This document shows positions 22,621 to 53,849 of a DNA stretch of 64,000 bases, piece after piece (the stretch's first letter is position 1; the number at the start of each line of letters is the position of its first letter). The stretch is from Methylobacterium sp. SyP6R. Its GTDB lineage: Bacteria > Pseudomonadota > Alphaproteobacteria > Rhizobiales > Beijerinckiaceae. A program made the translations under genes and the position numbers. The notes below the pieces were generated by a model that saw nothing but the letters and a program-made list of their open reading frames with translations, searched no databases and was not told the DNA's origin. The stretch covers positions 1 through 64,000 of the forward strand of contig NZ_JAAQRC020000003.1 of NCBI RefSeq assembly GCF_019216885.1, given 5' to 3'.

Positions 22621-23451
22621 CTACAGGACAGCAATTGTGATTACGAAAAATTCCCTCGTGCAAAGATCGGGATCTGAAAGTATTTTATGGCGATGATTGC
22701 AAATATCTCGCCATTTATCTCTATCAGTGGTTGAAATTGGCAATTGTTCGGACAAAGAAGAGAAGTATAAAATCATATCTTCAATATGATTCAATGATGA
22801 TTGATCGAGGGGAGCCCATCTCTCCACGAGTTGACCTTTCCGCTTTATAGGATTAATCCCTTTCTCTCGTAATCTTCTAGAGATAGAAGTGCCACTCCAA
22901 GGCCCGAGAAGCTCTTCTGGAGCGGAATATTTTCTGCGAGCCTCTTGCAATCTACTGATAAGGAATGGATCTATCGGGTCAATTTGGTACAATGAGGTGT
23001 CAGCCTCTTTGATTGCGAGAGTGCCGCCTCGCCTAAGGACGCGCTTGAACTCCTCAATTGCTTCTGAAAAGCCCTCTGCCGTCAGGTATTGAAGTACATT
23101 TGCGGTCCAAATGCAATCAAACGCTCCCGTCTTTATTGGTATTTGATTGATTTTTCCAACTAATGATCTCACAATCGTATTGCGAGCAGCACTTGTTGCA
23201 AGGCAGTTTGTAAAACGAATATTTTCTTCCGCTAGGTCCAAAGCCAAAATTGACCCGTCAACGCCAATAGATCGTGAGATTGCGTGATGATAACTGCCTA
23301 TTCCGCAACCTGCATCGAGGACAGACCAGCCGGGTTGAAAACCGACTTCGTCCACAGCACGCTCATATTCCTGCCGTGCGAAATAGTAATGCCGGTTAAG
23401 ATGAGCATGATCCGATCTCGCGTGGCCTCGAGATGTTCTTTTGATGTTCAT
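22621..23451 (-). CDS. class I SAM-dependent methyltransferase
   Basis: 276 residues from ATG 23451, chosen because TTGAGG lies 9 nt upstream; an in-frame TTG at 23466 is less likely. The Rossmann-type methyltransferase core is clear: motif I VLDAGCGIGSYHHAIS, the acidic loop ILALDLAEEN, and FDCIWTANVLQYLTAEGF followed by LRRGGTLAIKEAD. It would methylate a small molecule with S-adenosylmethionine. It is the last gene of the leftward biosynthetic series, 53 nt after the SHMT-like gene. Codons are markedly AT-rich, as in that neighbour, so the two probably arrived together. Confidence 0.75.
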   Translation of the reverse strand: MNIKRTSRGHARSDHAHLNRHYYFARQEYERAVDEVGFQPGWSVLDAGCGIGSYHHAISRSIGVDGSILALDLAEENIRFTNCLATSAARNTIVRSLVGKINQIPIKTGAFDCIWTANVLQYLTAEGFSEAIEEFKRVLRRGGTLAIKEADTSLYQIDPIDPFLISRLQEARRKYSAPEELLGPWSGTSISRRLREKGINPIKRKGQLVERWAPLDQSSLNHIEDMILYFSSLSEQLPISTTDRDKWRDICNHRHKILSDPDLCTREFFVITIAVL

Positions 23452-23504
23452 TAACTTAAACCTCAATCTGACTGCTGTAATGACAGCATTGGCTCAATTT
23501 AATA

Positions 23505-24776
23505 CTAAATATAATTAATTTTATTTTTATCAAAAGAGTACTTAATCAAATGAGCTTGATCAACGATTTCCTTGACAGCGGCGCGTAATGACGGCGTTTC
23601 CTCTTTTTCGAAAAGACATGAAGATATTATCTTGCCGATGGTTGTCATATGCTCTTCAATAAGACCCCTCCGCGTGATTTCTTGAACGCCAATCCTTATG
23701 ACATTTGTGTTTAGGGAGCGTTTGGCGTTCACGCTCAGGCCGCATCGAAGCAGCCTTTCGGTCCCCGACAGATGCTGATTGTCCGAGAAATCCTGCAGAT
23801 ATAGCTGATGCGTGTCCGTATGCCTTCCATCAATGTTGGTAACGTTGAGACCTTCATCTTGCAAACATTTAGCCAGCGTCCTTGAGTTGCTCAGTATTTG
23901 TTTGCTATATTCTACACCAAAAGACTCCATTTCAAGCATCGTGACATACAAAGCCAGAGTGTCGCCAGAATGTTGACTTGAGACCATTACGTCCATTGCG
24001 CTTGCAATACGTTGAAAAATTTCTTCATTATTTGAAAATACGGCTGCCTTTTGCGGACCAGGGAACGTCTTGTGCGTATTCCCTTGGAGGACGTCGCAAC
24101 CATACTGAAGTGGGTTGGGGAAGGCGCCGCCAGCTATTAACCCGAGTGGGTGAGAAGCATCGTAAACGATTGGGACGCTATCTCCTGCAATCTGACGAAG
24201 TTCTATCAAATTTAGCGAAAATAAACAACATGAATGATCGACATAGATAAGATCTGGAGCCCTTGATCGAAAGGAATTTTGGATACCGATTAAATCAAAA
24301 TCCAATTTATTATCATCCCACTCAAGGTATGCTGCCTGCCGTCCGAGCCTTTCAACGATTGGAGTGGTGGCAAAATGCCCCCCTTGCGAAGGATTAATAC
24401 AGTAAACGGTATCATTTTTATTTGTAAGCGCGGAAATAGTCACAATCATAGCATGCAATCCGGAAATAGGCCTTAGGTCAACGTGGCTTGCGCTAAACAA
24501 TTTCATTGCTGCACGACTCGCTTCCAACTCAAAATCATGCATGGCCGGAAGTGCAATGCTCGTTAGTCCAAGAGCGCTCACCCCAGAGCGGCGATATTCC
24601 CGTTTATTGACATGGCCCAGATGATATCTGCCATGTACAGGACAGGTTAGCATCGATTTGGCGGCATCAGACAAAACATTTTCATTTGCTGTAAGATGCA
24701 AAACATCGCTTGATCTAGAAAATTCTGACGAAAGCTGCTGAAAATGATGCATAAAAAGGCGGCGATCAGCGTTCAT
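23505..24776 (-). CDS. serine hydroxymethyltransferase-like PLP enzyme
   Basis: 423 residues from ATG 24776, which has GGAGG five bases upstream; an earlier ATG at 24788 overlaps that site. The fold-type I PLP features follow the SHMT pattern: HLTANENVLSDAAKSML (SHMT has ASEN-x-x-S), YDASHPLGLIAGG (cofactor aspartate and histidine) and the Schiff-base lysine in GNTHKTFPGPQK (about Lys236). The canonical TNKYAEGYPG substrate loop is altered to CPVHGRYHLGHV. A changed substrate is therefore likely, for example an amino acid or aldehyde other than serine/glycine. SHMT-like aldolases and transaldolases occur in natural-product clusters. AT-rich codons set it apart from the upstream genes. Confidence 0.7.
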   Translation of the reverse strand: MNADRRLFMHHFQQLSSEFSRSSDVLHLTANENVLSDAAKSMLTCPVHGRYHLGHVNKREYRRSGVSALGLTSIALPAMHDFELEASRAAMKLFSASHVDLRPISGLHAMIVTISALTNKNDTVYCINPSQGGHFATTPIVERLGRQAAYLEWDDNKLDFDLIGIQNSFRSRAPDLIYVDHSCCLFSLNLIELRQIAGDSVPIVYDASHPLGLIAGGAFPNPLQYGCDVLQGNTHKTFPGPQKAAVFSNNEEIFQRIASAMDVMVSSQHSGDTLALYVTMLEMESFGVEYSKQILSNSRTLAKCLQDEGLNVTNIDGRHTDTHQLYLQDFSDNQHLSGTERLLRCGLSVNAKRSLNTNVIRIGVQEITRRGLIEEHMTTIGKIISSCLFEKEETPSLRAAVKEIVDQAHLIKYSFDKNKINYI

Positions 24777-24899
24777 CTTAACCTCCATTGTGTGGCAAAA
24801 TGAATTTACGGGGCAGGGTGATCATTTCTACGGTCTGTTTCATCAGATGTGAGCATGATATATTTGATATTAGCATCATTATGTAATATTAATATTCAT

Positions 24900-26078
24900 C
24901 TATAGGAAGCAAACTTCAAAGTTTGTCATATATTCGTCGGTGCAAATTCTGCCGTCTGCAGCTAACAATGCGCCCAGTCGTCCGATTTCATCTGAGCTTT
25001 TAGCGGCTGCGCCGTTGCCGCCGGTAAGAACGATGATCCGGTGCGACTCCGCGAAGCCGATATACGGGTGTCCGTGCCGCGTGCATGTCGTCACACAAGG
25101 CATTGTTGAGAAGGCGCCGGGACGTAAATCGGGAAGAAGTGCTTCTAAGTGACGGCGCATATGGGCGGCCGCTGCGGTGTCCCCGTCCCCCGAGAACCAA
25201 GCGCGGATTACTGACTCGTTGGCGAGAAGGCGGTCTGAAGGATCACCCCCGATTTTGATCTTTAGGCCACCGTCCGGATAGCGGACGGGTGGAAGGACGT
25301 AGAAGCTGTCTGCATCCCCAGTCCCGGAGCAGATAACGCAAGGCATGGCTGCGTAGCGCCCCACATCCTCGGGTTGGACCTCGGCGAGAAGCACCGTGCG
25401 CGCCTTGACCTTTAGGTCAAGGGGGCGCGGCAACAGCTCCGATCTGATCGAGAAACCACCGACGGCCACGAGCGTCCGTGCGGCAGCGTACCGCTCCCCG
25501 TTGACCGTGCTTACCTCGACGTGTCTCCCTCTGTCATGCACCGCCGCTACTTCCGCGGTGATGACTGTCGCACCAGCGGCCTTGGCTAGCCTCACCTGTG
25601 CGGCAACCAACGCTCGTGGATCAATTATCCCGGCCGCTCGCATCTCGAGCAGTCCGGTGTATTCCTCAGGGAAGCGCAGCGCTGGAAAAGCGGAGCGCAA
25701 CTCGGCCGGATCGAGTTCCGCCACGTCGACGCCGACTCGGTCGCGTGTCGCGATGAACCGCATTATGGCCTCGCCGGCCTTCGGAGCCGCGATGACGCAG
25801 CCGACTTCAGTGTGGAAGCTGATGCCGCTCTCGGCCTCGATCTCGGCGTAGCGTGCGATCGAGCGCTGCGCGAGCAGCGCCCAGTCGGGATCGGCGTCTA
25901 TGGTCCGGGTGATGCGGCCGCTGTCGTAGTGGCTGGCGAAGACGCCGCCATGCGTGCGTCGATTGGCTGGCTCGTCGGGACCGACCAGAACGACGCGGGC
26001 GCCGAACCGCGCCAAGTGGCGCGCCGCAGCAGCACCCATCATGCCCTTTCCGACGACGGCGAAGTCGAAGGTCTTCAT
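24900..26078 (-). CDS. FAD-dependent amine/amino-acid oxidase (DAO family)
   Basis: 392 residues. The N-terminal dinucleotide fold VVGKGMMGAAAARHLARFGA (about residues 8-27) and the C-terminal TGGNGAAAKSSDEIGRLGA place it in the DAO/sarcosine-oxidase-like family. It starts 16 nt after the GNAT-like gene, within the leftward operon. In known hydrazine pathways a glycine/D-amino-acid-oxidase-type flavoprotein (Spb39 in s56-p1 synthesis) oxidises the N-N-linked intermediate to a hydrazone and cleaves it. The same role is inferred here. A simple amine or N-methyl-amino-acid oxidase is the alternative. Confidence 0.75.
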   Translation of the reverse strand: MKTFDFAVVGKGMMGAAAARHLARFGARVVLVGPDEPANRRTHGGVFASHYDSGRITRTIDADPDWALLAQRSIARYAEIEAESGISFHTEVGCVIAAPKAGEAIMRFIATRDRVGVDVAELDPAELRSAFPALRFPEEYTGLLEMRAAGIIDPRALVAAQVRLAKAAGATVITAEVAAVHDRGRHVEVSTVNGERYAAARTLVAVGGFSIRSELLPRPLDLKVKARTVLLAEVQPEDVGRYAAMPCVICSGTGDADSFYVLPPVRYPDGGLKIKIGGDPSDRLLANESVIRAWFSGDGDTAAAAHMRRHLEALLPDLRPGAFSTMPCVTTCTRHGHPYIGFAESHRIIVLTGGNGAAAKSSDEIGRLGALLAADGRICTDEYMTNFEVCFL

Positions 26079-26094
26079 GACGCGTCCGGCGACA

Positions 26095-26772
26095 TCATCT
26101 GAGCATCCCCACGGCGAAGATGGCGTCGCGCGGGTTAGGAATGGTCCGGGAGAGCCACGCGTCGATTGTGGGGTCGAGCGCTGTGCCCGGTCGTTTTTCC
26201 GACAGGTGGAGGTAGACGTCCCGCATGATCATCTTTGGCACCAGCAGGAGTTGCCGGGGATAAACGATCCGCGCGATCCGCTCGCACGCCTCGCGTAGGT
26301 GGGCGCTACCAAGGCTCAACGGGGCTGGCGCCACCTCTCGGCACAGGCGCGCGTTGAATTGCCATACGAAGGGATTCCGAGTCCGCCACGCCAAATACCG
26401 GGTTCCGGTATCGTCAGCAGGAAATCCTTCGCGTAGCATGATCTCGGTCAGGAGACGGTAGCAACTGCGGCCGCGCTCCTCCGGCCTGACGGCCGCCCCG
26501 GCCCTGTACAGGGCATGGTCCGTTCCGAGCGGAACTCGAAAGAAGATGCTGTATCCGACGGCACGGCGACCGCGGTGGCAGAAGACGACGCCGTAGCCAC
26601 TCTGGAACGGAAAGTTCTCCGCGCCAAAGGCCTGCGCAACGCCGTCACGGTCGAAATCCCAGCAAGTTTCCATGACGTCGAGGATGTCGGTCAGGACGCG
26701 TGACCGCTCCGGATCGGAGAGCGCGGACGCATCGCCAATCACCTCCAGCACGGCTCCTTCGTCTCGCTGCAT
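26095..26772 (-). CDS. GNAT-like acyltransferase
   Basis: About 225 residues from ATG 26772, preceded by AAGGAG. The central part has a GNAT-like beta strand and pyrophosphate-binding loop (GYSIFFRVPLGTDHALYRAG, then AVRPEERGRSCYRLLTEIML). The C-terminal half (RYLAWRTRNPFVWQFNARLC) is longer than in small GNATs. It would acylate an amino group of a pathway intermediate or protect the host from a toxic product; both are inference. It lies between the DUF3291 and oxidase genes on the same strand. Confidence 0.55.
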   Translation of the reverse strand: MQRDEGAVLEVIGDASALSDPERSRVLTDILDVMETCWDFDRDGVAQAFGAENFPFQSGYGVVFCHRGRRAVGYSIFFRVPLGTDHALYRAGAAVRPEERGRSCYRLLTEIMLREGFPADDTGTRYLAWRTRNPFVWQFNARLCREVAPAPLSLGSAHLREACERIARIVYPRQLLLVPKMIMRDVYLHLSEKRPGTALDPTIDAWLSRTIPNPRDAIFAVGMLR

Positions 26773-26869
26773 GGCCTCTTCACTCCTTGCCTTTACCCAA
26801 CCTGTCTGCCCCGACAACGAGCCCACACGCGGCCCGGGCCCGCTGCGCGGCCGGGTTTAGCCACCGCCG

Positions 26870-27436
26870 TTAAGAGGCCGTTGCGGAGAGCGGCTCAATC
26901 CGCTGGCCGTCAATCTGGCTGAGCCGATGGCCGTCCGGATCGAAGGGCTGCGCGAAGTCGAAGACACGGGGGCTCGGACCGTTGTCGTGCAGGAATTCGA
27001 GGTTGCGTGCGGCCTCGACCCAGGTCGGGATATATTCGTCACCGACCCACCACATCGCGTAGGTTGGCCAGACAGGCTTGCGGAACCACTTCTCCCGCTG
27101 CGCCAGGGCTCGTGCGTGCAGGCCGCCGTACGCGAACGCGCGCACGGCCTCGATGTCGGTCCAGAGGCTGAGGGTCGAGGCGCGTGTATCGGTCTTCGTT
27201 TGACGACCGCCGTCGTAGAAGCGCGGGACGGCGAAGGGGCCCCATGGACCCCAGTCGCGTTCGAAATTGGTCAGGGCCTCGTTGTCCTCGTCCAACTCCC
27301 GCGCTCTCGTGATGAAACCTGGCGCCTTCTCGGCGTGCCGAAAGACGGCCGGGGTAATGGCTTCGAAGCCGCGGACGACCTCGCTCCCGTAGGGCTTCAG
27401 CATTATCGCGAAGGTCGTGAAGGCGAGTCGAGACAT
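26870..27436 (-). CDS. DUF3291 domain protein
   Basis: 188 residues from ATG 27436, with GAGGAAG upstream, 8 nt after the PhzF-like gene. It matches DUF3291: FAIMLKPYGSEVVRGFEAIT, then LSLWTDIEAVRAFAYGGLHA and PTYAMWWVGDEYIPTWVEAA. The family is a dimeric alpha-beta-barrel type related to antibiotic monooxygenase-like folds, with no established reaction. Tight spacing in the cluster suggests a pathway role. Confidence 0.7.
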   Translation of the reverse strand: MSRLAFTTFAIMLKPYGSEVVRGFEAITPAVFRHAEKAPGFITRARELDEDNEALTNFERDWGPWGPFAVPRFYDGGRQTKTDTRASTLSLWTDIEAVRAFAYGGLHARALAQREKWFRKPVWPTYAMWWVGDEYIPTWVEAARNLEFLHDNGPSPRVFDFAQPFDPDGHRLSQIDGQRIEPLSATAS

Positions 27437-27444
27437 GGGCTTCC

Positions 27445-28329
27445 TCAGAGCTTGAGCTGGCCCCGCAGGACCGTGACGCACCGACCGCCGACGGCATGGC
27501 GCCGGGCGGCGCCCTCGTCCGCTGCCGAGATCAGGACCCGCCCGGGCCGGCTGATCTCGGCTCCTTGTTCGAACACGAGTTCGCCGGGCGGTGGCGGGCT
27601 GCCAGACAGGAGGAAGGCCGCGAGCGCTCCGGCGCAGGAGCCGCAGACCGGATCCTCGTAGATGCCCTCGGCCGGTGCGAAGCTCCGTAGCCGAGCGGCG
27701 ACGCCTGGACAGGGTGCGCGGACGAAGACGGTGAGACCCACAGCGTCGTGGGCCCGTGTGATCCGGGTGATCGCGGAGAAATCAGGTGTGAGCGCTGCCA
27801 GCGCCGCGGGGCCGTCGAGCTCAACCAGGAGCCAGGGTACGCCCGTCGCTGCGCGCACCACCGGCCGGTCTAGCACACTCTCCAGTGCGATCCCGAGCGC
27901 CGCCGCCACCTTCTCGGGAACGATGTCGGTCTGGGTTAGGCTGGCCTCTGGCATCTGGACGAACCATGTCGCTCCGGGATTGGCGCGCTGGACGGTCACG
28001 AGACCGATTCCACATTCCTGTCGCAGTCCGATGGCCGTTGATCCCGTCGCCTCCGTGAAGGCGTGCGCCGCCGCCAACGTCGGATGACCGGCGAACCGGA
28101 GCTCACGCTTGGTCGTGAAGATGCGAACTCTGAAATCGCCGCCCTCCTCTGGAGGGGCCAGGAACACGGTCTCGGAAAGATTGGTCTCGCGCGCGATTGC
28201 CTGCAGCATGTCATCTGGCAGATCGGCAGCGCCGAATATCACCGCCGCCGGGTTTCCGGATAGCGGCCTCTCGGCAAAGACGTCCACCTGCCAGAGCTCA
28301 AGCCGCGTCGTGGTCGAAGGAAAGTTCAT
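27445..28329 (-). CDS. PhzF-family isomerase/epimerase-like protein
   Basis: 294 residues from ATG 28329. PhzF-type features are clear: the N-terminal WQVDVFAERPLSGNPAAVIF, the catalytic glutamate in IARETNLSETVF (about Glu49), FTTKRELRFAGHPTLAAAHA, and the second half EGIYEDPVCGSCAGALAAFL. The family includes PhzF (phenazine synthesis) and diaminopimelate-epimerase-like folds, and usually catalyses proton shifts without cofactor. In this cluster it could isomerise a diaminobutyrate- or hydrazine-derived intermediate. It belongs to the leftward run, about 130 nt after the aminotransferase. Confidence 0.8.
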   Translation of the reverse strand: MNFPSTTTRLELWQVDVFAERPLSGNPAAVIFGAADLPDDMLQAIARETNLSETVFLAPPEEGGDFRVRIFTTKRELRFAGHPTLAAAHAFTEATGSTAIGLRQECGIGLVTVQRANPGATWFVQMPEASLTQTDIVPEKVAAALGIALESVLDRPVVRAATGVPWLLVELDGPAALAALTPDFSAITRITRAHDAVGLTVFVRAPCPGVAARLRSFAPAEGIYEDPVCGSCAGALAAFLLSGSPPPPGELVFEQGAEISRPGRVLISAADEGAARRHAVGGRCVTVLRGQLKL

Positions 28330-28461
28330 GGATTCGTTCTCGCACGTCCGCTCGTGAAGAGTTTGGACTGGCTCCGCTCCCGAGCAACGCGGCGGGACCA
28401 AGTGCAATGGGGCTAACCGGGTGAGGTCGGCCGGCATCACGGTCAGAGGACGATCTCCTGC

Positions 28462-29736
28462 TCAACTCGCGAGCCGAGGCTGGACCGCTTCGTGGCTGAC
28501 AGCCTCTCCAAGAAGGGCGAGGGCATCCTCCACCTCCGTCCTGCCGATTGTCAGCGGCGGCAGCAGCTTCAGCACCTCGTCCCGGCGGCCGCAGGTCTCG
28601 GCGATTACGCCGCCAGCGAACAGGCGCCGCGAGAGCGCTGTCGCGACTTGAGCCTCCGCGAACGACAATCCGATGAAGAGGCCGCGGCCTTTCACTTGAG
28701 CGGTACCGCCCGGCAGGTTCGCGGTGATGCGCAGCAGACCCTCCCGCAGGAGCGCTGCCGTCCCGGCCACCTCTCCCACGAAGCGATCGTCCGTCCAGTA
28801 AGTCTCGATGGCCGCTGCCGCGCCCACGAAAGCCAAATTGTTGCCGCGGAACGTCCCGTTGTGCTCGCCCGGCTGCCAGCGGTCGAGGTCAGGCCGGATC
28901 AGGACTAGCGAGAATGGCGTCCCGAAGCCGGACAGGGATTTCGACAACACCACGATGTCCGGCTCGATGCCGAAGGGCTCGAAGGAGAAGAAGCTTCCGG
29001 TCCTGCCGTTCCCGGCTTGGATGTCGTCGATGATCAGGATGGCGCCCAGCTCCCGCGCCAGGACGGCAATCCGCCGCACCCAAGACGCGGATGCCGTATT
29101 CAAGCCACCCTCGCCCTGGACCATCTCAACGAGGATCGCAGCAGGGCGATCGACGCCGGATCCGCCCTCCAGCAGCATCGGGGTGATAAAGTCGAGCGTA
29201 TCGACCTCGTCGCCGAGGAAGCCATCGTAGGGCATGAAGGTGGTGTTCGCGAGCGGCGCGCTCGCCCCGGCTCGCTTGGCTGGGTTGGCCGTCGCCGCCA
29301 GGGCGCCGAGCGTCATGCCATGGAAGCCGTTCGTGAACGCGACCACGTTAGTGCGCCCCGTCACCTTCCGGGCAAGCTTTAGGGCAGCTTCGATAGCGTT
29401 GGTTCCTGTCGGGCCTGGGAACTGCATTTTGTAGTTCAACTGGCGCCGCGATAGGATGTGGCGCTGGAACACGTCGATGAAATTCGCTTTTGCTTCCGTG
29501 TGGAGGTCGAGAGAATGAACTATGCCGCCACTCGTGAGGTAATCGATCACGCGCCCGACGATCGCCGGGTTGTTGTGGCCATAGTTCAAAGTGCCGGCGC
29601 CAGAGAGAAGATCAAGATAGCGCCGCCCACCCACATCGGTCATCCACACGCCCTCGCCACGAGCGAAGATCGTCGGAAAGCTGCGGCAGTAGCTGCGAAC
29701 TTCGGACTCGAAGCGGTCAAACACGTGGGCGTTCAT
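28462..29736 (-). CDS. ectB: EctB-like L-2,4-diaminobutyrate aminotransferase (class III)
   Basis: 424 residues, start ATG 29736 with GGGGAG upstream. It is a class III PLP aminotransferase with EctB-specific blocks: MQFPGPTGTNAIEAALKLAR, AFTNGFHGMTLGALAATANP, cofactor aspartate in IIDDIQAGNGRTG and the PLP lysine in SKSLSGFGTPF (Lys266). EctB enzymes convert aspartate semialdehyde and glutamate to L-2,4-diaminobutyrate. No ectA or ectC lies nearby, so ectoine is not the product. With the N-monooxygenase immediately downstream, diaminobutyrate is a good candidate building block for the hydroxylamine. Confidence 0.8.
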   Translation of the reverse strand: MNAHVFDRFESEVRSYCRSFPTIFARGEGVWMTDVGGRRYLDLLSGAGTLNYGHNNPAIVGRVIDYLTSGGIVHSLDLHTEAKANFIDVFQRHILSRRQLNYKMQFPGPTGTNAIEAALKLARKVTGRTNVVAFTNGFHGMTLGALAATANPAKRAGASAPLANTTFMPYDGFLGDEVDTLDFITPMLLEGGSGVDRPAAILVEMVQGEGGLNTASASWVRRIAVLARELGAILIIDDIQAGNGRTGSFFSFEPFGIEPDIVVLSKSLSGFGTPFSLVLIRPDLDRWQPGEHNGTFRGNNLAFVGAAAAIETYWTDDRFVGEVAGTAALLREGLLRITANLPGGTAQVKGRGLFIGLSFAEAQVATALSRRLFAGGVIAETCGRRDEVLKLLPPLTIGRTEVEDALALLGEAVSHEAVQPRLAS

Positions 29737-29811
29737 CGTTCTCTCCCCTCACAATACTCGGCGGAGCCGCCCGATGGATCAGGCCTGACCGAGTTCGGCA
29801 GGCTCACGCCG

Positions 29812-31152: not shown

Positions 31153-31261
31153 ATCGCCTTGTAAAAACTATGATTTAAAGAATTCACATGATGACTTATC
31201 TACATTATTGTATTTAGTGTTTGATCTGAATAAATGAAAACCGGTATCCAATATTGCAAAT

Positions 31262-32794
31262 TTAAATGATCTCGCTTGCTGCAATCGATGCTAACGGAGT
31301 GGGCCATGTGACTGGACCTGTCTCTCCGCAGGCAAGCCAGAGGCGCTCCGAAGCTGCTGGCACAATAGGAGCCATACCGGCGCAAAGGGCTCGTACGACG
31401 CCCCGAACGACGTCCGGATCCCCATCATGCGCAACAAGCGCCAGGGCAAGTTCTAGGCCGGTGGCGACTGCTAGTGCAGCGATCCGCAGGCTGGGCCTCT
31501 CGTGCCCGTAGGCAGCCTCGAACCTACGACGCAGCGCTCGCGCTTCCGGTGTCTCAGGTCGCGCTGAAGCCGGCGGATTCAGCGCCAGAAGAGCCTCCTC
31601 CAGTGCCTCGAGCGGCTTCCGGAACTTTCGGGCGACGATTAGTTCGAAGTCGTCCTGCGAAAAGTTCGCCTGATTGTACTCAGGATTTGAGTATGCGAGG
31701 TAGAAGCGCGCCTCGTCGGCATCGACTTTCGCCAGAAAGTCCCGGCCCCATATGAGGTGTCCTTGGCTTGTGGAGAACTTGAACTGATCTAGTAGGTAGA
31801 ACTCGTTTGTCACAAAGGCGGCGGGAAGCAACGCGTCGGCACCACATTCTGCGGCAGCGAATGCTAGGCATAATTGAGCGACGCAATAGAAGAACGAGTT
31901 GTCGAAGCCGAGATACTGTATGTACCGGACCCGGCTTGGCGCAGGAAACAATCCGGACCCATACTTCGTCCGGTGAGCCTTGTCGAGCCAGTAGTAGTGT
32001 CCCGGCACCATCTCTGCCCAGACGTTCAGAACCATCCCGCGTTCATCGCCCAGTGGCGAGGCAACGCCCCACATCGACGGGAAGGTGATCGGGAACGTCG
32101 GTAGGCGACTGTCGAAGAGTTCGTCTATCAGCCGAGCGAGCGTGGGCCTCCGTTCAGGGAGGGTGTCGAGCAGGTGCGATCGGAGCCGAGGTCGCCATGT
32201 CTCCAGATCGAAGACCACCTCTGAAACGGTTCTCGGCTCGATCCGGTCGCCTGGTCTGCCGCCCGTCGGATGGAGCCCGAACAAGGCCTCAGCATCGTTC
32301 GGGTGTCCGCAGGTCTCGCAGATGTTGCCTTTCGTCTCGCAAAGGCAAGTTGGGCATCGTCCCGAGGCGTAGGCCTCGAACAGGAAGCGGTCACGAGCGA
32401 CATCATACGGAACCGGTCGCTGCCGCCTGCTAAATACGCCGTGCCCGTCTAGATGGCGGAACCATTCCACGACATAGTGGGCGTAACTCGCATCCGGCAG
32501 TCCCACAACGTCGAAGGCAATCTCGGCTGATCTTAGCGTGGAGGAGATTTCAGCATGGCTCCGCGTCGCGAGGGTGCGCGGATCCAGACCCAGGCGCTCT
32601 GCAGTGGTGACGACGTAGCTTTGATGGGTGTCTACCCCGAGCGCTGCAACCGCCTTGTGGCCACGCAACGACAGGTATCGGCGCAGCACGTCGGCCCCGA
32701 AATATGGGCCCGACAGGTGACCGACATGGAGGTCGCCGTTAGGAGTCGGAGGTGGCGCGACGATCGCGAAGAGCTCTGTCTGAGGATATGTCAT
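31262..32794 (-). CDS. methionyl-tRNA synthetase-like protein, predicted hydrazine synthetase subunit
   Basis: 510 residues if started at ATG 32794 (an in-frame TTG 32806 is possible). The class I synthetase fold is clear: the HIGH motif is HVGH in PTPNGDLHVGHLSGPYF (residues 23-26), and a zinc knuckle CPTCLCETKGNICETCG (about 147-162) is MetRS-like. GFDNSFFYCVAQL matches the MetRS core. KMSKS is replaced by KFSTSQ (about 339-344), and a helical C-terminal domain follows. In s56-p1, triacsin and pyrazofurin-type pathways, a MetRS domain fused to a cupin activates an amino acid and joins it to an N-hydroxyamine before N-N bond formation. Here the two are separate adjacent genes. A housekeeping MetRS is unlikely given the context and altered motif. 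Confidence 0.8.
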   Translation of the reverse strand: MTYPQTELFAIVAPPPTPNGDLHVGHLSGPYFGADVLRRYLSLRGHKAVAALGVDTHQSYVVTTAERLGLDPRTLATRSHAEISSTLRSAEIAFDVVGLPDASYAHYVVEWFRHLDGHGVFSRRQRPVPYDVARDRFLFEAYASGRCPTCLCETKGNICETCGHPNDAEALFGLHPTGGRPGDRIEPRTVSEVVFDLETWRPRLRSHLLDTLPERRPTLARLIDELFDSRLPTFPITFPSMWGVASPLGDERGMVLNVWAEMVPGHYYWLDKAHRTKYGSGLFPAPSRVRYIQYLGFDNSFFYCVAQLCLAFAAAECGADALLPAAFVTNEFYLLDQFKFSTSQGHLIWGRDFLAKVDADEARFYLAYSNPEYNQANFSQDDFELIVARKFRKPLEALEEALLALNPPASARPETPEARALRRRFEAAYGHERPSLRIAALAVATGLELALALVAHDGDPDVVRGVVRALCAGMAPIVPAASERLWLACGETGPVTWPTPLASIAASEII

Positions 32795-32822
32795 CTGCTC
32801 AGCCAATCACTTCATGGAGTTT

Positions 32823-33533
32823 CTAGGCTTCTGGCTGCGTCGACGCTTTCAACTGGTCCGCGATGTGCATCAGCCTCGCGTTCGCTTCTGGACTTCCCCA
32901 GAAGATCGTCAGGAAGCGAAGTGGCACTAATGACGACGTGTTCCGGACGGTGTGGTGGCTGAACCTGGGCAGGTAGATGACGTCACCTGCTTCAATCGGT
33001 GAACTCTCGTCGTCAACTGTGATGATGCCGGCGCCATCCAGTATCAGGAAGGTCTCTTCCTCGTCGTGCGAGTGCGGTGTAGTCGACTCGCTGGGACGTA
33101 CTGAGGCAATTGCGCTGCCCCATAGCGGATCCGCGACATCAGCCCAAGGATAGAGGCGTCTAAGATCGCAGCCGTACTCGTAAGACGACGTCGCATCTTT
33201 GGCGCGAGCTATGCGCATCGCGTCCTCCTCTATTCGACCTGTGTTTTCGCCAGCCCACGCCGCTAGCGGCGTGGGCTGGCCGAAGCTCCCACGGCAACCA
33301 CCCTGGGTTTCTCTTAACAGGTACCCTGAGTACCATCGTGTCAAGGAAAAATTGCGGCCCAGCTTCGATTGAAGCGAGGAAAAAAAAGCCTCATCTCCTT
33401 GAGAAAATTCGATCAGCGGGTTGATGCGCAGCCGGGGTTGTGGCTCTCTGTCACCTCCTATGTCGAGAGTAAGCTCGTGAAGGAATGCATCCTGGCTGCT
33501 AAATAAAGGAAGTACAGCAGTCGCCGTGTTCAA
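32823..33533 (-). CDS. cupin protein, predicted partner in N-N bond formation
   Basis: 236 residues. A stop lies 9 nt upstream in frame and no ATG occurs in the first 100 codons, so the start is TTG 33533 or another rare codon. The C-terminal cupin barrel shows metal ligands in TPHSHDEEETFLILDGAG (His154, His156, Glu160) and YLPRFSHHTVRN (His194). The N-terminal 120 residues are not recognised. The gene ends 28 nt before the MetRS-like start, in the same order as the known cupin-MetRS fusion enzymes. In those, the cupin domain rearranges an ester of the N-hydroxyamine into the N-N product. A perfect 32-bp palindrome lies inside codons 85-96. Confidence 0.8.
   Translation of the reverse strand: MNTATAVLPLFSSQDAFLHELTLDIGGDREPQPRLRINPLIEFSQGDEAFFSSLQSKLGRNFSLTRWYSGYLLRETQGGCRGSFGQPTPLAAWAGENTGRIEEDAMRIARAKDATSSYEYGCDLRRLYPWADVADPLWGSAIASVRPSESTTPHSHDEEETFLILDGAGIITVDDESSPIEAGDVIYLPRFSHHTVRNTSSLVPLRFLTIFWGSPEANARLMHIADQLKASTQPEA
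33249..33280. repeat. perfect 32-bp palindrome inside the cupin gene
   Basis: The arms GCCAGCCCACGCCGCT and AGCGGCGTGGGCTGGC are exact reverse complements with no spacer. It is entirely within coding sequence (FGQPTPLAAWAGEN region). As RNA it would form a very stable stem with a small loop. Confidence 0.85.
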
Positions 33534-33732
33534 GCCCGCCTATCCGTCCGATATTGGGCCCGAAAACGACTAATACACATTCCGCGTTCTGTATCGGGTC
33601 GGGAGTGGCTGGTGTTGGTCTGCGACAGCTTCGGCGCGACCGCCTGCAACCGATCCGGAAAGCGCGCGCTGCTGCTTCCGAGAGGCCGCGGATGATCGTT
33701 GCGCCCCGTGATCCTCAAGGAGCGTGACCGAA

Positions 33733-35031
33733 ATGCAGACCCCTGATAGACCGTCCGGAGACGCGGCCCCCACGCCGCTCCGCGGCGGCCCGGCCCCATG
33801 GGCGCGGGCTGGCGGCTACTTCGCTTGGGCGTTGATGGCGACCGCCTACGCGCTCGCCTTCTTCCACCGCGTGTCCCTGCAATCGCTGAACTTCGGTCTA
33901 ACCCGCGACTTCGGTGCCGATGCTGCTGGGATCGCCGCGCTCGCCTCGGCCTATTTCTGGGGCTACACCCTCATGCAGTTGCCGGCTGGCCTGTTGGTCG
34001 ACCGGTATGGCGTGCGGCGTGTGGTCCTCTGCAGCATGGCCACGTCGGCGCTCGGCAGCGCGGCCTTCGCGCTAAGCCCAAATCTCTCTGTCGCCGTGCT
34101 AGCGCGCTTGGTGCTTGCGAGCGGCGATGCCCTTGTCTTCAGCTCACTCCTCAAACTCGTCGCCCTGCGTTTCCCAGACCGCCGGTTTGGCGTCATGTCC
34201 GGCCTGTCCCAGGTCTCGGGATACGTGGGTGGGGCCTTCGCCACCGTCCCGCTCGCTGTCGGGGTGGAGCATATTGGCTGGCGATCCTGCCTGCTCCTCG
34301 CGGCGCTGATCGGCGCCCTAAACTTCATCTTGATCGCTGCGTCCGCCAGCGTGCCTCGCGCGTCAGGCACTGCCAGGAGTTTGCATGCTCTCCTAACCTA
34401 CATGGCCGACGCACTCAGGAGCAGAGCGAACTGGGGCAATGTCTTGACGTTCGGATCCCACTTCGTTGTCGTCACGACTCTCTCGGGCGTTTGGGGGCTG
34501 CCGATGATCGCCCATGTGTTCGGAATCGACGGTTCGCAGGCGGGTGCCGCGCTGCTCGCCTTCATGATCGGGAATGCGTTTGGCTCCGGAGGGCTCGGCT
34601 ATTTGGCCGACCGTGTCTTGAACTCGGACCGCGCGTTGGTGGTCGTTTGCTTGCTGCGGAGCGTACTGATCGCCCTGCTCTTTCCTGCGGTCCTGCGCCA
34701 CACGCCGTTCGCGCTCGTTGTAGCCAACTTTGCGGTCCTCGGCCTCCTTGCCGGAGGCACGATCCCGCTGATCCTCAAATGCACGAAGCGCCTGTACACT
34801 GCCGAGTTCATCGGCGTCGGAGCGTCCGTCAACACCGCGTCCGCGGGCCTATTCGCCGCGGCTACGCAGCCAGTGATCGGCTTCGCGATGACCTGGGCGA
34901 GCGGCGGAGCCGATCGAGCCCCGGGTGCGCTGAACGATGTAGGGTACGGTGCGATGGTTGCGGCGCTCCTCCTGCTCTCGGTTCCGGGCCTGATCGGGCC
35001 CCTCATGATGGGTAGGCGCGTCCGGGGCTAG
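33733..35031 (+). CDS. MFS transporter, probable exporter of the cluster
   Basis: 432 residues with about twelve membrane spans. Start ATG 33733 is chosen because AAGGAG (33717-33722) is 10 nt upstream; GTG 33724 would be too close. The loop 2-3 motif GLLVDRYGVRRVVLCSMATS is the MFS A-motif region. It is divergent from the cupin gene across a 200-bp intergenic stretch that must carry both promoters. Major-facilitator exporters are common in antibiotic-type clusters and provide export or self-resistance. Its substrate is inferred from context only. Confidence 0.75.
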   Translation: MQTPDRPSGDAAPTPLRGGPAPWARAGGYFAWALMATAYALAFFHRVSLQSLNFGLTRDFGADAAGIAALASAYFWGYTLMQLPAGLLVDRYGVRRVVLCSMATSALGSAAFALSPNLSVAVLARLVLASGDALVFSSLLKLVALRFPDRRFGVMSGLSQVSGYVGGAFATVPLAVGVEHIGWRSCLLLAALIGALNFILIAASASVPRASGTARSLHALLTYMADALRSRANWGNVLTFGSHFVVVTTLSGVWGLPMIAHVFGIDGSQAGAALLAFMIGNAFGSGGLGYLADRVLNSDRALVVVCLLRSVLIALLFPAVLRHTPFALVVANFAVLGLLAGGTIPLILKCTKRLYTAEFIGVGASVNTASAGLFAAATQPVIGFAMTWASGGADRAPGALNDVGYGAMVAALLLLSVPGLIGPLMMGRRVRG

Positions 35032-35076
35032 AGCATCATCTAATAGAGTGGATGCCAAAGTCGAAGGGAGAAGGTC

Positions 35077-35565
35077 ATGTGCTCATCAAAACGCGGCGCT
35101 CTCCTCAACGAGGCCGTCAGGATCGGGATCGAGAACTCGGTCCTGTGCTGGTTAGCGACCGTCGATGAAGCAGGTAATCCCAATGTTTCGCCGAAAGAGA
35201 TCTTCGTCTCTCACGGCAACGACAGGATCTTGGTGGCAGATATCGCTTCCCCGACCAGCGTCAGGAACATCGCAGCGCATCCGAGCGTCTGCGTGAGCTT
35301 CGTCGACGTGTTCCGGCAGCGCGGCTTCAAGGTTCATGGCCGTGCTTCACTCATCACGCGCGGGTCGGAGGCCTTCGAGACGACGGGGGCTGACCTGCTG
35401 AAGAAGGCCGGCCCCGATTTTCCGGTTCGCACCATCATCTCCGTCCGCATCGAGCGGATCGCCAGCATCCGGGCTCCAAGCTACGCGCTGTTCCCCGAGC
35501 GGACCGAGGCGGAGCGCATGCGCGCCGCTTACGATACCTACAAGGTCGAGCCCCGCTCCGTCTGA
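35077..35565 (+). CDS. pyridoxamine-5'-phosphate-oxidase-like FMN-binding protein
   Basis: 162 residues from ATG 35077 with GGGAGAAGG upstream, 45 bp after the MFS gene. The split-barrel FMN fold is shown by VLCWLATVDEAGNPNVSPKE and NIAAHPSVCVSFVDVFRQRG. Such proteins reduce or bind small flavin substrates; residues for true PNPOx activity cannot be confirmed. It is probably co-transcribed with the exporter. It may act on the product or relieve oxidative stress. Confidence 0.75.
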   Translation: MCSSKRGALLNEAVRIGIENSVLCWLATVDEAGNPNVSPKEIFVSHGNDRILVADIASPTSVRNIAAHPSVCVSFVDVFRQRGFKVHGRASLITRGSEAFETTGADLLKKAGPDFPVRTIISVRIERIASIRAPSYALFPERTEAERMRAAYDTYKVEPRSV

Positions 35566-35587
35566 CGCTTTACATCGCTGAACAGGC

Positions 35588-36361
35588 TTACGAACCATTC
35601 GAAGCGTCTTCGCTGTCGCGCGGGAAGGTGTCGGCGTGAGCGTCGAGCAGCGCCGCTTCGAGCGGCCGCCCTTGCCTGTAGGGCGCGAGTTGAAGGGGCC
35701 TCGTGACGGTGGGCATTAGCCGCGGGCAGGCTTCCGGTTCACCAATTAGCAGGTGAACCGGCAGGCGCTCGGCGTAGATCGGCAGCGCGTAGTCATTCTC
35801 GTCGTCACCGACGCCTTTGGCGCGGATCTTCGCCGAGGCCCGCTCGATGTCCATGAATACCACTGCCGTGGCCTTGGTCTCCTGCGCCGTGCTCGGCCGC
35901 AGACCCGCCGTGCGGCCAGGGAAGAAGCGGTCTACCATCATCACGAGTGCCCGGCGCTTCTCCTCAGGGTTCGTGACGAGACGGGCGCGCCCAAAGGCCA
36001 TCACCGAGCGGTAATCGGCGGAGTGGTTGAAGCCGCTGCGCGCGAGCACGAGGCTATCGAGGTGGGTGACGGTGAGGCAAACCGGCTCGCCGTCCGAGAG
36101 GTTACGCAGCATCCGGCTGGCACTCGATCCGTGCCAGTAGAGCCGCGGGCCCTCACGCCAAAAAAGGGTCGGCGTGCAGTAGGGCTGGTCATCGATGATG
36201 TACGAGACATGACAGAGCGCGGCCGCATCGAGCAGCTGATACACGGTCTTGCGATCGTAGAAGCCGCGCTCGTGCAACCGCTTCATACGATTGACGGCAT
36301 CAATTGGATAGGTTGCAGAATAATCCTCGGGCACGCGCTTCTCCGCTGTTGGTGAGAGCAT
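35588..36361 (-). CDS. NimA-like pyridoxamine-5'-phosphate-oxidase family protein
   Basis: 257 residues, start ATG 36361, without a strong ribosome binding site. The N-terminal flavin split barrel has VYQLLDAAALCHVSYIIDDQ, YCTPTLFWREGPRLYWHGSS and ADYRSVMAFGRARLVTNPEE, like NimA nitroimidazole-reductase-type proteins. The C-terminal extension is conserved in larger family members. It converges on the other FMN-binding gene with 22 bp between the stops. A reductive step on an N-N or N-O group, or self-protection, would fit the cluster, but this is inference. Confidence 0.7.
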   Translation of the reverse strand: MLSPTAEKRVPEDYSATYPIDAVNRMKRLHERGFYDRKTVYQLLDAAALCHVSYIIDDQPYCTPTLFWREGPRLYWHGSSASRMLRNLSDGEPVCLTVTHLDSLVLARSGFNHSADYRSVMAFGRARLVTNPEEKRRALVMMVDRFFPGRTAGLRPSTAQETKATAVVFMDIERASAKIRAKGVGDDENDYALPIYAERLPVHLLIGEPEACPRLMPTVTRPLQLAPYRQGRPLEAALLDAHADTFPRDSEDASNGS

Positions 36362-36869
36362 TTAGCAGATCTAGCAGTTTCGCCTCTGCCGGATTGATAT
36401 AAACTAGATTCTTTATCATGTGGCGATTTATTGATGAAATCGCACCTGGAAGTTAATACCTATCAGACTAACAGCAATTTTCCGTACGTATGTCAGCGTG
36501 CGCTTCTTTGCGTCCGTGTCATACTTTCGCCTCTTAAGAATACGCCTGCCCTTGCACTTGTCGAAGAGTTTGCCCCTCTGGGCTGCCTCTGAGATAGCTT
36601 TGTAAATGGCCGGATAAGGCCTCGCACTTGTGAAAGTGTGATGCCTGGATCGTCACCACGCCCTCGTGATACGGCACTGCACATATCCAGTAGTGTTGCG
36701 AGGCGATCTTCAGCGCCGGTGCGCTCTTGAGCGTAGTCCCTCTTCATATCTGCCCGTCGTCGGTTTGGCAATCTCAAGTTTTCTCGCAAGGCTCGCCGTT
36801 AGTGGTGTAACCTTGCGGCTCAGCCTGAAGGTGCGAAGCGTGTCCGTGCACCTACGTGGGCTGAAAAGG
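36362..36869. other. intergenic region upstream of luxR
   Basis: About 500 bp with no convincing gene. It is AT-rich near 36380-36480 and must contain the promoters of the leftward FMN-binding gene and probably of luxR. A frame open through 36666-36869 joins luxR but has no recognisable content. Confidence 0.4.
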
Positions 36870-37628
36870 ATGTCGAACCGGAGCGCGTTCATGTCATCCA
36901 GGTTGGCCGACCATAGCAAAGAGGCGTTCGCCTTCATTGAGGAGATCGAACGTGTCGCGACGCCCAGGCAGGTAATCGACGCCATGGCCCGCTCGCTCGG
37001 GACGTTCGGGTTCGAGCACTTCGTCGTCACCCAACTGCCGGGACCTCAAGAGCGGTTCGAGCAGACCGTCATCAGCCGGAAATGGCCGATCGGCTGGTTC
37101 GAGCTTTACACGCGGGAAGATTACGTCCGCGTCGATCCTGTCATTCGGCGCTGTCGGGAGACGGTCCAGCCTTTCAAGTGGTTCGAGGCGCACTACGATC
37201 CCCAGCACGAGCCCCGCGCCCGTGAGGTGATGGAGCGCGCGTGTGACTTTGGGATGCGACGCGGCTTCAGCCTGCCAATCCATGGTCCTGAGGGTTACGG
37301 CGGCTGCTTCTCAATGAGTGGATCGCACCTCGATCTCAATCAACGCACCAAGCCGGCCATCCACCTCATGGCGATGTATGCCTTTGATCGACTTCGGCAG
37401 ATCGGACGAACGCCACGTAGCGAACAGAAGAACCCCCTTACCCAGAGAGAGCAGGAAGTCCTTCGGTGGGCGGCAGCCGGCAGATCAGCGGCTAATATTG
37501 CCGATCTCCTCGATATCACCGAGCGCACGGTGACCTGCCACACGGTCAATGCCATGCGGAAGCTTGGCGCGATTAATAAAACTCAGGCTGTTGCCTATGC
37601 TATCCAGCGGCGCCTGATCCATATTTAA
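36870..37628 (+). CDS. luxR: LuxR-type autoinducer-binding transcriptional regulator
   Basis: 252 residues if started at ATG 36870; ATG 36891 is an alternative with a clearer spacing. The N-terminal autoinducer-binding domain includes WFELYTREDYVRVDPVIRRC (conserved W, Y and D positions) and GFSLPIHGPEGYGGCFSMSG. The C-terminal helix-turn-helix reads NPLTQREQEVLRWAAAGRSA and ITERTVTCHTVNAMRKLGAI. It should bind an acyl-homoserine lactone and act on promoters nearby. It lies directly upstream of luxI on the same strand. Confidence 0.85.
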   Translation: MSNRSAFMSSRLADHSKEAFAFIEEIERVATPRQVIDAMARSLGTFGFEHFVVTQLPGPQERFEQTVISRKWPIGWFELYTREDYVRVDPVIRRCRETVQPFKWFEAHYDPQHEPRAREVMERACDFGMRRGFSLPIHGPEGYGGCFSMSGSHLDLNQRTKPAIHLMAMYAFDRLRQIGRTPRSEQKNPLTQREQEVLRWAAAGRSAANIADLLDITERTVTCHTVNAMRKLGAINKTQAVAYAIQRRLIHI

Positions 37629-37638
37629 ATCGATCTGA

Positions 37639-37660
37639 CCTGTAGATTCCTACGATATCC
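37639..37660 (+). promoter_or_regulatory. lux-box-like dyad upstream of luxI
   Basis: CCTGTAGATTCCTACGATAT contains the dyad GTAG-ATTC-CTAC centred 70 bp before the luxI start. Spacing and partial symmetry resemble a LuxR binding site; the outer bases do not match, so it is tentative. Confidence 0.35.
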
Positions 37661-37716
37661 TGATAAGCCGGAGCCAATAATAATCCCCCTCGGTCTATGG
37701 ATTGAGGAGGGGTTGC

Positions 37717-38364
37717 GTGACGAAGATTCATGTCGTTACCCGGCACAATCGCACGCTCTATGACGAGGCCATACGGCACCACCACCAACTCCGTCACGAC
37801 ATCTTTGTCGGGGAGCGATCCTGGCGTTCGCTCACCCGTTCGGATTGCCGTGACATCGACGCTTACGACAATGATAACACTACTTACCTGCTTGCTATCG
37901 ACAATGATCGGGTTGTTGGCGGCCAGAGACTGTATCCGACAGTCCTACCGCACATGATTAGTGACGTGTTCCCGCATCTCGTCTCAATGAGAAGCGTCCC
38001 AAAGGCGCCGGACATCTTCGAGTGGACCCGCTATTTCGTCGTGAAGGAGCGTCGGACCGGACGGACGGATTGCCGGATGCTCGCGGCTGTCCAGGAGTTC
38101 TGTCTGGAAGAGGGCATCAGCCAAGTCACTGCCGTGGTCGAGATGTGGTGGCTGCCGCGCTGGCAGCAATCGAGGTTCAAGGTGCGCCCCCTGGGCCTGC
38201 CGGTGGACGTCGAGGGGCAGCCGACGATCGCGGTGCTCATCGACATCTCCGAGGAGAGCTTGGCAGCCGTCCGTTGTCTCGCGGGCTTGCGCGGTGCGTC
38301 TCTTGTTCGCAGAGGACCACAGCGCCCCGCCATCCACTGGGTGCCCTATGCAACTGCATCCTGA
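37717..38364 (+). CDS. luxI: acyl-homoserine-lactone synthase
   Basis: 215 residues from GTG 37717, chosen because GAGGAGGGG lies immediately upstream (37704-37712); the in-frame TTG before it overlaps that site. LuxI signatures are present: RHDIFVGERSW (R, F and W), DIDAYDNDNTTYLLAIDNDR (paired aspartates), VVGGQRLYPT and DIFEWTRYFV (E and R). It makes an acyl-homoserine lactone from an acyl donor and S-adenosylmethionine. The end overlaps the start of a small gene. Together with luxR it probably controls the adjacent biosynthetic genes by cell density. Confidence 0.85.
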   Translation: MTKIHVVTRHNRTLYDEAIRHHHQLRHDIFVGERSWRSLTRSDCRDIDAYDNDNTTYLLAIDNDRVVGGQRLYPTVLPHMISDVFPHLVSMRSVPKAPDIFEWTRYFVVKERRTGRTDCRMLAAVQEFCLEEGISQVTAVVEMWWLPRWQQSRFKVRPLGLPVDVEGQPTIAVLIDISEESLAAVRCLAGLRGASLVRRGPQRPAIHWVPYATAS

Positions 38365-38584
38365 AGAGCCGGGCGAGCCGGAGCTGACGCCGCGGGAACT
38401 CACCAACGATTTGCGAATCACCCTGATCACGTTCGTGAGCCAGCTGTCGCCAGATGCGAAGGCCAAGCTGAACGCCTTTCTTTACATCGCCAGTTCGAAG
38501 CCGGTCTTGGACGTCGACCTCGTGATCGATCCAGATGGCTTGGCGACGCTCACGCTCCGTCACTCGGTCGCGAGTGCCCCTTGA
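38348..38584 (+). CDS. small protein coupled to luxI
   Basis: 78 residues from ATG 38348, overlapping the last 17 bases of luxI. The N-terminus is proline- and glutamate-rich (MQLHPEEPGEPELTPRELTN), followed by a helix (LITFVSQLSPDAKAKLNAFL) and a beta hairpin (DVDLVIDPDGLATLTLRH). The overlap implies translational coupling, so it may modulate synthase or regulator activity. Not recognised. Confidence 0.55.
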   Translation: MQLHPEEPGEPELTPRELTNDLRITLITFVSQLSPDAKAKLNAFLYIASSKPVLDVDLVIDPDGLATLTLRHSVASAP

Positions 38585-46424: not shown

Positions 46425-46960
46425 TGCGCTTCAAGCGCTGGCCCCGGCCGACGGCCTTCGAGGATACGTCGCGCAAACGCGCGGCGTACCTTCGCAAGCA
46501 GGTCCGCGAGCAGGCGGCCCTCCCTCTCTTCGCCGCGGCGATCGCCGAGCGCCAGCTCGACGTCGACGAGGAGATGGTCCGGCGCACCGGACAGTGGGAG
46601 CGTCAGCAGCACGAGAGCCGCCGGCAGCGGGCTGCCGGCTGGCGCCGGGCCCGCGAGCGCCTGTTCAAGCACCCGGCCGGCGCCGGGCGATCCGGGCGCT
46701 GTGGCGGATCTGCCCGTATCCGGCCGATCCGAGCTATCTCGCAACCCTGTTGCACGAGATCGCGACCGGCCGGATCGATCCAGCGCGGCCTCCCTGGGGC
46801 GGGCGGCATACGCTCACCCCCCGCACGACGCCGAACCCGGCGACCTTCGGCGAGGCCTTCCGCCAGATCGGCCAGCGAACGGTCGGCGGCGGGCCGAAGA
46901 CCACCGGCGCCGACGAGAGGCAGTTCTGCGGCAATCTCGGCTCGGGGATCCTGTTCCTGA
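46424..46960 (+). pseudogene. hypothetical protein, N-terminal part (frameshifted)
   Basis: ATG 46424 overlaps the ardC stop. The first 85 residues are credible (RFKRWPRPTAFEDTSRKRAA, then QVREQAALPLFAAAIAERQL and RQRAAGWRRARERLF). After about 46670 the frame becomes arginine/serine-rich noise, while sensible sequence continues in the first forward frame. An indel near 46665-46690 is likely. The family is not recognised. Confidence 0.5.
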
Positions 46961-47223: not shown

Positions 47224-47260
47224 GTCTATGAGGGCGAGGCGAGGGTCGATCCGATGGCCG

Positions 47261-47298: not shown

Positions 47299-47392
47299 AG
47301 CTGGATCTGCTCCACTGGCCCCCCTCCGCTCGGGACCGACGTGGTGTCAAGCAGATGGAATGCGTTGCGACGTGATCGGAGGCGAAGCGAAT

Positions 47393-53846: not shown

Positions 53847-53849
53847 TAA

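Follow-up and report, generated by a model that had tools for sequence, protein, structure and literature searches.

Which compound is built by a ten-gene operon of Methylobacterium sp. SyP6R that joins a cupin and a MetRS-like protein to a side-chain amine N-monooxygenase? The genes in question lie at positions 22621-38584 of a 64,000-nucleotide stretch (the window) of contig NZ_JAAQRC020000003.1 (assembly GCF_019216885.1). Ten of them form a minus-strand run from the cupin to the methyltransferase gene (22621-33218); on the other side, up to 38364, are found a divergent major facilitator superfamily (MFS) transporter gene, genes of two split-barrel flavin-type proteins and a luxR-luxI pair. 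A preliminary description of this DNA had named these genes, and each was recovered as an intact frame where it had been placed (Table 1). Because of the families and catalytic residues found, a hydrazine synthetase pathway is very probably present, and we assign a probability of about 0.7 to the reading that the operon builds a hydrazine from diaminobutyrate for a secondary metabolite.

The hydrazine-synthetase triad foreseen in the preliminary description, namely cupin, MetRS-like protein and N-monooxygenase, stood up to both checks that could have spoken against it, one on the kinship of the cupin with known hydrazine synthetase cupins and the other on the grouping of the MetRS-like protein with housekeeping MetRS. 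The cupin bears four metal ligands, including the invariant Glu, the MetRS-like protein retains ATP motifs and lacks methionine recognition, and an N-monooxygenase gene is linked. Solved relatives of the cupin are plu4264 (4mv2), 4rd7 and RHS1 (5UQP, E 7.6e-7), the last reported as an N-N bond former (PMC8664883). Residues H49/H51/E55/H89 keep all four ligands, with the same spacing as the published H50/H52/E56/H90 of PyrN, the pyrazomycin enzyme, whose ligand set is identical (PMC8664883). In a MAFFT alignment, E55 and H89 fall on E69 and H103 of RHS1, and H49/H51 lie one column off D63/H65, in a stretch that was read by eye. PyrN activity is lost without the cupin Glu56 and almost lost without His52, while about 82% is left without His50 and 27% without His90 (Zhao et al. 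2021, PMC8664883); RHS1 tolerated mutation of none of its four ligands (PMC8664883).

The start of the cupin is most likely ATG 33218, behind GGAGGA, which gives a protein of 131 aa, and not TTG 33533, which would give a 236-aa frame. No comparable N-terminal extension was seen in six aligned cupin relatives, of which the one at locus L040, as excised, has about 20 extra residues; the cupin of locus L027, outside this alignment, was matched from residue 87. The 105 codons at 33219-33533 form an open frame continuous with that of the cupin, protein-like and lacking a counterpart in the aligned relatives, possibly a remnant or a leader.

With the metG model the MetRS-like protein scores 146 bits (cut-off 336), against 508 for the other, housekeeping MetRS of the genome, and in phylogeny it groups apart from housekeeping enzymes. 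Its ATP motifs HVGH and KFSTS are kept. At the nine pocket positions, under the numbering that we presume, it reads PTWMVHNYQ, where E. coli MetG has LYWAPYIHW and the housekeeping MetRS of the host IYWALYIHW. Given the separate grouping, the metG scores and the lost methionine pocket, identity with a housekeeping MetRS was rejected. Prediction of the second substrate from the pocket was dropped as well, the sole comparator of reported substrate (Glu) being of the Rhodococcus type with a different pocket (NTALAYNRF in the Rhodococcus-type protein of DK17). Among 111 genomes of the genus, nine further ones gave a MetRS match at E 1e-20 or better, with 27-29% identity. These nine rows (L020-L026, L034, L035) keep LYWAPY of the methionine pocket, are probably ordinary MetRS and were not counted as synthetases; SyP6R itself has no match to this MetRS-type gene with an intact methionine pocket.

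Judged from sequence comparisons, the hydroxylated partner is probably N4-hydroxy-diaminobutyrate. The EctB gene of the operon is the only one in the genome to exceed the equivalog cut-off of TIGR02407. A MetRS-like match was found at 104 loci, of which nine probably hold a true MetRS, after the omission of 13 that were short or duplicates; at least nine of the 104 carry EctB at more than 200 bits, a lower bound drawn from about 4 to 33 kb of DNA per locus. A first tree was made of the 85 monooxygenases longer than 330 aa out of 88 found, and a second one of 36 hand-picked rows together with the window enzyme and the Rhodococcus-type enzyme. The window monooxygenase, 59-62% identical to its A. 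vitis relative, falls into a 13-row clade (support 100/98) with seven of the nine EctB-linked loci. The enzyme of the Rhodococcus-type DK17 cluster, where the cupin carries the RHS1 accession, belongs to a different clade (100/100). The EctB label requires four changes on the tree as compared with 8.1 in shuffles, which ignore relatedness. At locus L027 (6507-9189), tandem monooxygenase matches, 31% and 48% identical to the window enzyme, lie beside EctB and synthetase genes. A model of ectoine synthase found no match in the genome, and none in the control genomes either, so that this result does not establish an absence.

Several observations weigh against the diaminobutyrate reading. The loci were mostly picked by likeness to the window MetRS, which favours kin. 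At two EctB-linked loci, L093 and L104 (EctB 39%), the monooxygenase sits in a lysine-type clade, and for the 13 actinomycete rows of a 21-row clade in the 85-row tree no EctB above 200 bits was present in the DNA examined. EctB-like matches are also common: a search of 72,556 plasmid records at E 1e-5 gave them in 1,938. The pocket string of the MetRS-like protein is matched by no other aligned row and the second amino acid is not predictable from it. Finally, a search upstream of the cupin found no sigma-70-like promoter pattern.

How far does the conserved part of the operon reach? A locus of A. vitis CG118 (L037), one of 80 returned by a scan of genome contigs, contains cupin, MetRS-like, monooxygenase, EctB, PhzF and DUF3291 genes in the order of the window, the products being 75, 57, 62, 62, 50 and 66% identical, respectively. 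Since the first six genes keep their order there, PhzF and DUF3291 belong to the core, and the recurrence of this order, together with the EctB genes at nine of 104 loci, indicates that the association is more than chance. Elsewhere among the loci compared, neither PhzF nor DUF3291 gave a match at E 1e-5. The four tail genes (GNAT-like, oxidase, transaldolase-like and methyltransferase) have no match in the A. vitis locus, where a LysE-type exporter (by eye) follows the core and genes of an adenylation-domain protein, an FAD_binding_3 protein and a hydrolase flank it. The six-gene core is rare. A MetRS match at E 1e-30 was found in four of 397 genomes of the host's family and in seven of 297 of its order, the host included in both counts; another family of the order gave one match at E 1e-60 in 394 genomes, 36% identical to the A. 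vitis protein. A search of the PDB with the DUF3291 protein returned no match, and single-sequence structure prediction was uninformative (mean predicted local distance difference test score, pLDDT, 31.5).

Twenty frames selected from related loci were scanned against family models. Besides the synthetase genes, the A. vitis locus has in common with L033, which comes from a genome of the same family as the host, the adenylation-domain protein, the FAD_binding_3 protein and two small proteins; no counterparts of the adenylation-domain and FAD_binding_3 proteins were found among the window genes scanned. Four actinomycete synthetase loci (L052, L055, L064, L069) share a small protein, F15, which resembles the aspartate decarboxylase PanD by eye.

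Our best reading, by analogy with actinopyridazinone (Apy) biosynthesis, is that N4-hydroxy-diaminobutyrate would be joined to a second amino acid to give a linear hydrazine. EctB would convert aspartate semialdehyde to L-2,4-diaminobutyrate, and the N-monooxygenase would hydroxylate its side-chain amine. The MetRS-like protein would adenylate a second amino acid, other than methionine, and transfer it to the N-OH group to form an ester, which the zinc cupin would rearrange into the N-N bond. The sequence shows the families and catalytic residues, and the reactions are proposed by analogy with the characterised PyrN, RHS1 and Apy systems. The PhzF-like isomerase and the DUF3291 protein may act next, since both travel with the synthetase genes; speculatively, they could carry out proton shifts or an oxidation of the hydrazine toward a hydrazone or a cyclic pyridazine-type amino acid. 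From their position, the oxidase, the transaldolase-like pyridoxal phosphate (PLP) enzyme, the GNAT-like protein and the methyltransferase would be later tailoring enzymes, and the MFS protein would export the product. A further idea is offered as doubtful: the core shared with A. vitis CG118 would be a new hydrazine sub-pathway whose PhzF and DUF3291 enzymes make a cyclic N-N (pyridazine-type) amino acid from the diaminobutyrate hydrazine. Here, under quorum control, the transaldolase-like enzyme would lengthen this product into a beta-hydroxy amino acid, and plant-associated bacteria would thereby have a plasmid-borne signal or antimetabolite of a new class.

Comparison with known systems shows which parts of this scheme have precedents. 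In the Apy pathway, Apy11 hydroxylates diaminobutyrate and Apy9 couples the product to alanine (PMC11705231, a review). Apy9, Apy10 and Apy11, compared by description only, share with our operon a monooxygenase for diaminobutyrate (a predicted substrate in our case), the cupin/MetRS hydrazine synthetase and a flavin oxidoreductase (PMC11705231). Here, by contrast, the flavoenzyme groups with sarcosine-oxidase-like proteins and there are dedicated EctB, PhzF, DUF3291 and transaldolase-like genes, for which the description of Apy gives no view of the apy cluster content. Spb38/39/40 of s56-p1 and Tri26/27/28 of triacsin biosynthesis, which follow the hydrazinoacetic acid route, likewise combine, by description, a monooxygenase, a cupin and a MetRS-like enzyme with a DAO-family flavoenzyme nearby. 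Those systems use lysine (PMC11705231), whereas here the EctB linkage and the monooxygenase clade point to diaminobutyrate, and cupin and MetRS-like protein are separate proteins. Stand-alone proteins of both kinds also occur in Rhodococcus jostii RHA1, where RHS1 and its MetRS-like partner use N6-hydroxylysine and glutamate (PMC8664883); the DK17 cluster differs from ours by a saccharopine dehydrogenase gene, apart from its MetRS-like pocket. Operons of MetRS paralogues with a cupin and a lysine-type monooxygenase were described by Iyer et al. 2010, some with a diaminobutyrate transaminase among the neighbours (PMC2922099). Their predicted product was a methionine-lysine dipeptide, which differs from the hydrazine reading, and a text search of that article for PhzF gave no match (PMC2922099).

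The preliminary description held that the pathway is unlike known ones. This does not apply to EctB, as Apy11/Apy9 already use N4-hydroxy-diaminobutyrate (PMC11705231) and a diaminobutyrate transaminase neighbour is on record (PMC2922099), but the PhzF/DUF3291 and transaldolase-like steps do appear as new. No earlier report of a role of PhzF or DUF3291 in a hydrazine synthetase core, or of a transaldolase together with a hydrazine, was found among the papers listed from the literature searched, which covered few subscription papers. The bond-forming enzymes are members of a known family, but the genes around them appear to be a new combination, which suggests a compound not described so far.

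The tail genes required closer assignment. Family and PDB matches place the flavoenzyme in the sarcosine oxidase/N-methyltryptophan oxidase type, and one of its Cys residues aligns with a Cys of sarcosine oxidase that we take to be the covalent flavin adenine dinucleotide (FAD) site. Four rhizobial proteins share 47-56% identity with it; three of them, in two records, lie near mraZ/rsmH. A tree of 12 hand-picked rows puts it with these four sarcosine-oxidase-like proteins (100/99) and away from seven flavoenzymes found at other hydrazine synthetase loci, among which the branching has little support; Apy10 and Spb39 were not among the rows. An equivalence with Spb39, as had been proposed, finds no support in this placement, nor does direct orthology, and a role equivalent to that of Spb39 or Apy10 is not evident from the comparison.

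The PLP enzyme scores 297 bits with the NCBIfam model of fluorothreonine transaldolase (cut-off 650; model positions 11-410 of 609) as against 191 with that of SHMT, both below cut-off. Its best solved chain is 7k34, a "threonine aldolase" that we presume to be ObiH (1e-39), closely followed by the SHMT chains 4bhd and 4uqv (7e-38). It is related to fluorothreonine transaldolase without passing the curated model; the label "SHMT-like" holds for the superfamily, within which the enzyme lies closer to threonine transaldolase than to ordinary SHMT. For the GNAT-like protein, named by eye alone, no Pfam or NCBIfam family was matched and single-sequence fold prediction was uninformative (mean pLDDT 34.9); one plasmid relative (25% identity, E 5e-6) lies beside genes of a nonribosomal peptide synthetase (NRPS). 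DobB, which acylates hydrazinoacetic acid (PMC13061610), would be a precedent for this gene, should it prove to be a GNAT. Two Rhizobium plasmids carry a relative of the methyltransferase (42% identity); in the one context inspected, no synthetase gene was among the annotated features.

Do other explanations account for these genes equally well? The methyltransferase and PLP enzyme genes have a GC content of 44%, compared with 57-68% elsewhere in the operon, and may therefore have joined it later. An extension of this view takes the whole tail for a distinct segment inserted later, so that the six-gene core would by itself determine the product. It would also agree with the lack of matches to all four tail genes at the A. 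vitis locus; we hold it to be unlikely, as the tail lies on the same strand with short gaps and its oxidase and GNAT-like genes resemble core genes in GC. A different role for the oxidase is conceivable too. Diaminobutyrate might be a nitrogen carrier only, its side-chain C-N bond being cut by the oxidase as described for Spb39, to give an alpha-hydrazino acid building block and aspartate semialdehyde, recycled by EctB. Enzymes of the sarcosine oxidase type, to which this flavoenzyme belongs, attack secondary amines. Moreover, the semialdehyde set free by cleavage of the Spb39 type derives from the amino acid that was hydroxylated (PMC11705231); with diaminobutyrate, it would be the substrate of EctB. 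The A. vitis locus has no match to the oxidase, however, and the latter stands apart from the flavoenzymes of other synthetase loci, so that we consider this scheme rather improbable.

A little less probable again is that the monooxygenase hydroxylates lysine or ornithine, with the diaminobutyrate made by EctB serving as a separate building block or as the second amino acid. Most of its solved relatives in a PDB search are indeed named as lysine, ornithine or putrescine enzymes, and N6-hydroxylysine is used by many hydrazine synthetases (PMC11705231), but its clade is shared with EctB-linked loci and excludes the Rhodococcus-type enzyme. Very improbable, in our opinion, is a siderophore or hydroxamate pathway in which the GNAT-like protein acylates N-hydroxy-diaminobutyrate and no N-N bond is formed. 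The combination of N-monooxygenase and GNAT follows a pattern of siderophore pathways that is discussed in PMC2922099, yet this reading does not account for the cupin and MetRS-like pair, whose catalytic motifs are intact, and neither a siderophore receptor nor an NRPS was seen among the window frames scanned, a part of all frames.

With starts as first called, the co-directional genes of the operon are separated by gaps of 16-111 bases and one 37-base overlap; for PhzF, DUF3291 and the GNAT-like gene, ATG 28329, 27436 and 26772 are the more likely starts, and once they are adopted the gaps are 8-132 bases. The palindrome ahead of the cupin is GC-rich, with a strong predicted hairpin and no T-run behind it; its 20-base core has no further copy in the genome at up to two mismatches, and it does not fit the lux-box consensus as we presume it to be. 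The two flavin mononucleotide-binding proteins match PNPOx_N and Pyridox_ox_2, the latter with a weak match to the Nim family as well. Relatives of the Pyridox_ox_2 protein (36-39%) occur in six related loci, in four of them right next to the monooxygenase and in the other two some 2.5 kb past the MetRS match, and it may be part of the pathway. LuxI (Autoind_synth) and LuxR (Autoind_bind and GerE) form a sound pair by Pfam and, by their proximity, may control the operon. Upstream of luxI, no 18-22-base palindrome with up to two mismatched pairs was found; a weak half-site, ACCTGTAG, was spotted there by eye against the presumed consensus. The last 220 bases of the interval hold just one 96-aa frame, which lacks an assignment and overlaps luxI.

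Outside the cluster, the window was used for context, through a frame list and family scans of some frames. The contig has 252,545 bases in a 7.5-Mb genome and appears to be a large plasmid, as ArdC anti-restriction, ParB and strawberry-notch-type helicase genes (45408-62318) and an integrase gene at 21-22 kb fit a plasmid. IS66 transposase and reverse transcriptase genes were listed for 9286-12074.

Table 1. Features of the cluster with window positions, strand and basis of assignment
Feature	Position	Strand	Basis
Cupin of 131 aa, the hydrazine synthetase half predicted to be zinc-dependent and to form the N-N bond	32823..33218	-	Pfam Cupin_2; start codon; relatives; ligands H49, H51, E55, H89
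MetRS-like protein, 514 aa, predicted amino-acid-activating half of hydrazine synthetase	31262..32806	-	HVGH and KFSTS kept, methionine pocket lost
Flavin-dependent side-chain amine N-monooxygenase, predicted substrate L-2,4-diaminobutyrate	29812..31152	-	Lys_Orn_oxgnase 302 bits; trees
EctB-type diaminobutyrate--2-oxoglutarate transaminase	28462..29736	-	TIGR02407 580 bits, cut-off 552; genome search
PhzF-family isomerase/epimerase	27445..28329	-	PhzC-PhzF 199 bits; TIGR00654 above cut-off; solved relatives 1ym5, 1u1v
DUF3291 protein	26870..27436	-	Family match; 65-66% identity to A. vitis counterpart
GNAT-like protein (by eye), without family match	26095..26772	-	No Pfam/NCBIfam match
FAD amine oxidase, monomeric sarcosine oxidase/N-methyltryptophan oxidase type	24900..26078	-	Family matches, alignment, tree
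PLP enzyme, SHMT superfamily, nearest fluorothreonine/threonine transaldolases, 44% GC	23505..24788	-	Family and PDB matches
Class I S-adenosylmethionine methyltransferase, 44% GC	22621..23466	-	Family match
MFS transporter, probable exporter, divergent from operon	33724..35031	+	Family match
PNPOx_N split-barrel flavin-type protein	35077..35565	+	Pfam
Pyridox_ox_2 flavin-type protein	35588..36361	-	Pfam; six actinomycete loci have relatives close to the genes of hydrazine synthetase
LuxR-type autoinducer-binding regulator, true start maybe further in	36666..37628	+	Pfam
LuxI-type acyl-homoserine-lactone synthase	37702..38364	+	Pfam
Perfect palindrome, 32 bases, 16-base arms	33249..33280	.	Cupin leader, 30 bases ahead of start codon

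Nitrogen-nitrogen bonds seldom occur in living systems and are of value in drugs. The cluster of SyP6R places a PhzF-type isomerase and a DUF3291 protein within a conserved hydrazine core and provides a testable set of enzymes outside actinomycetes, of which two independent versions, on this plasmid and in A. vitis, can be compared.

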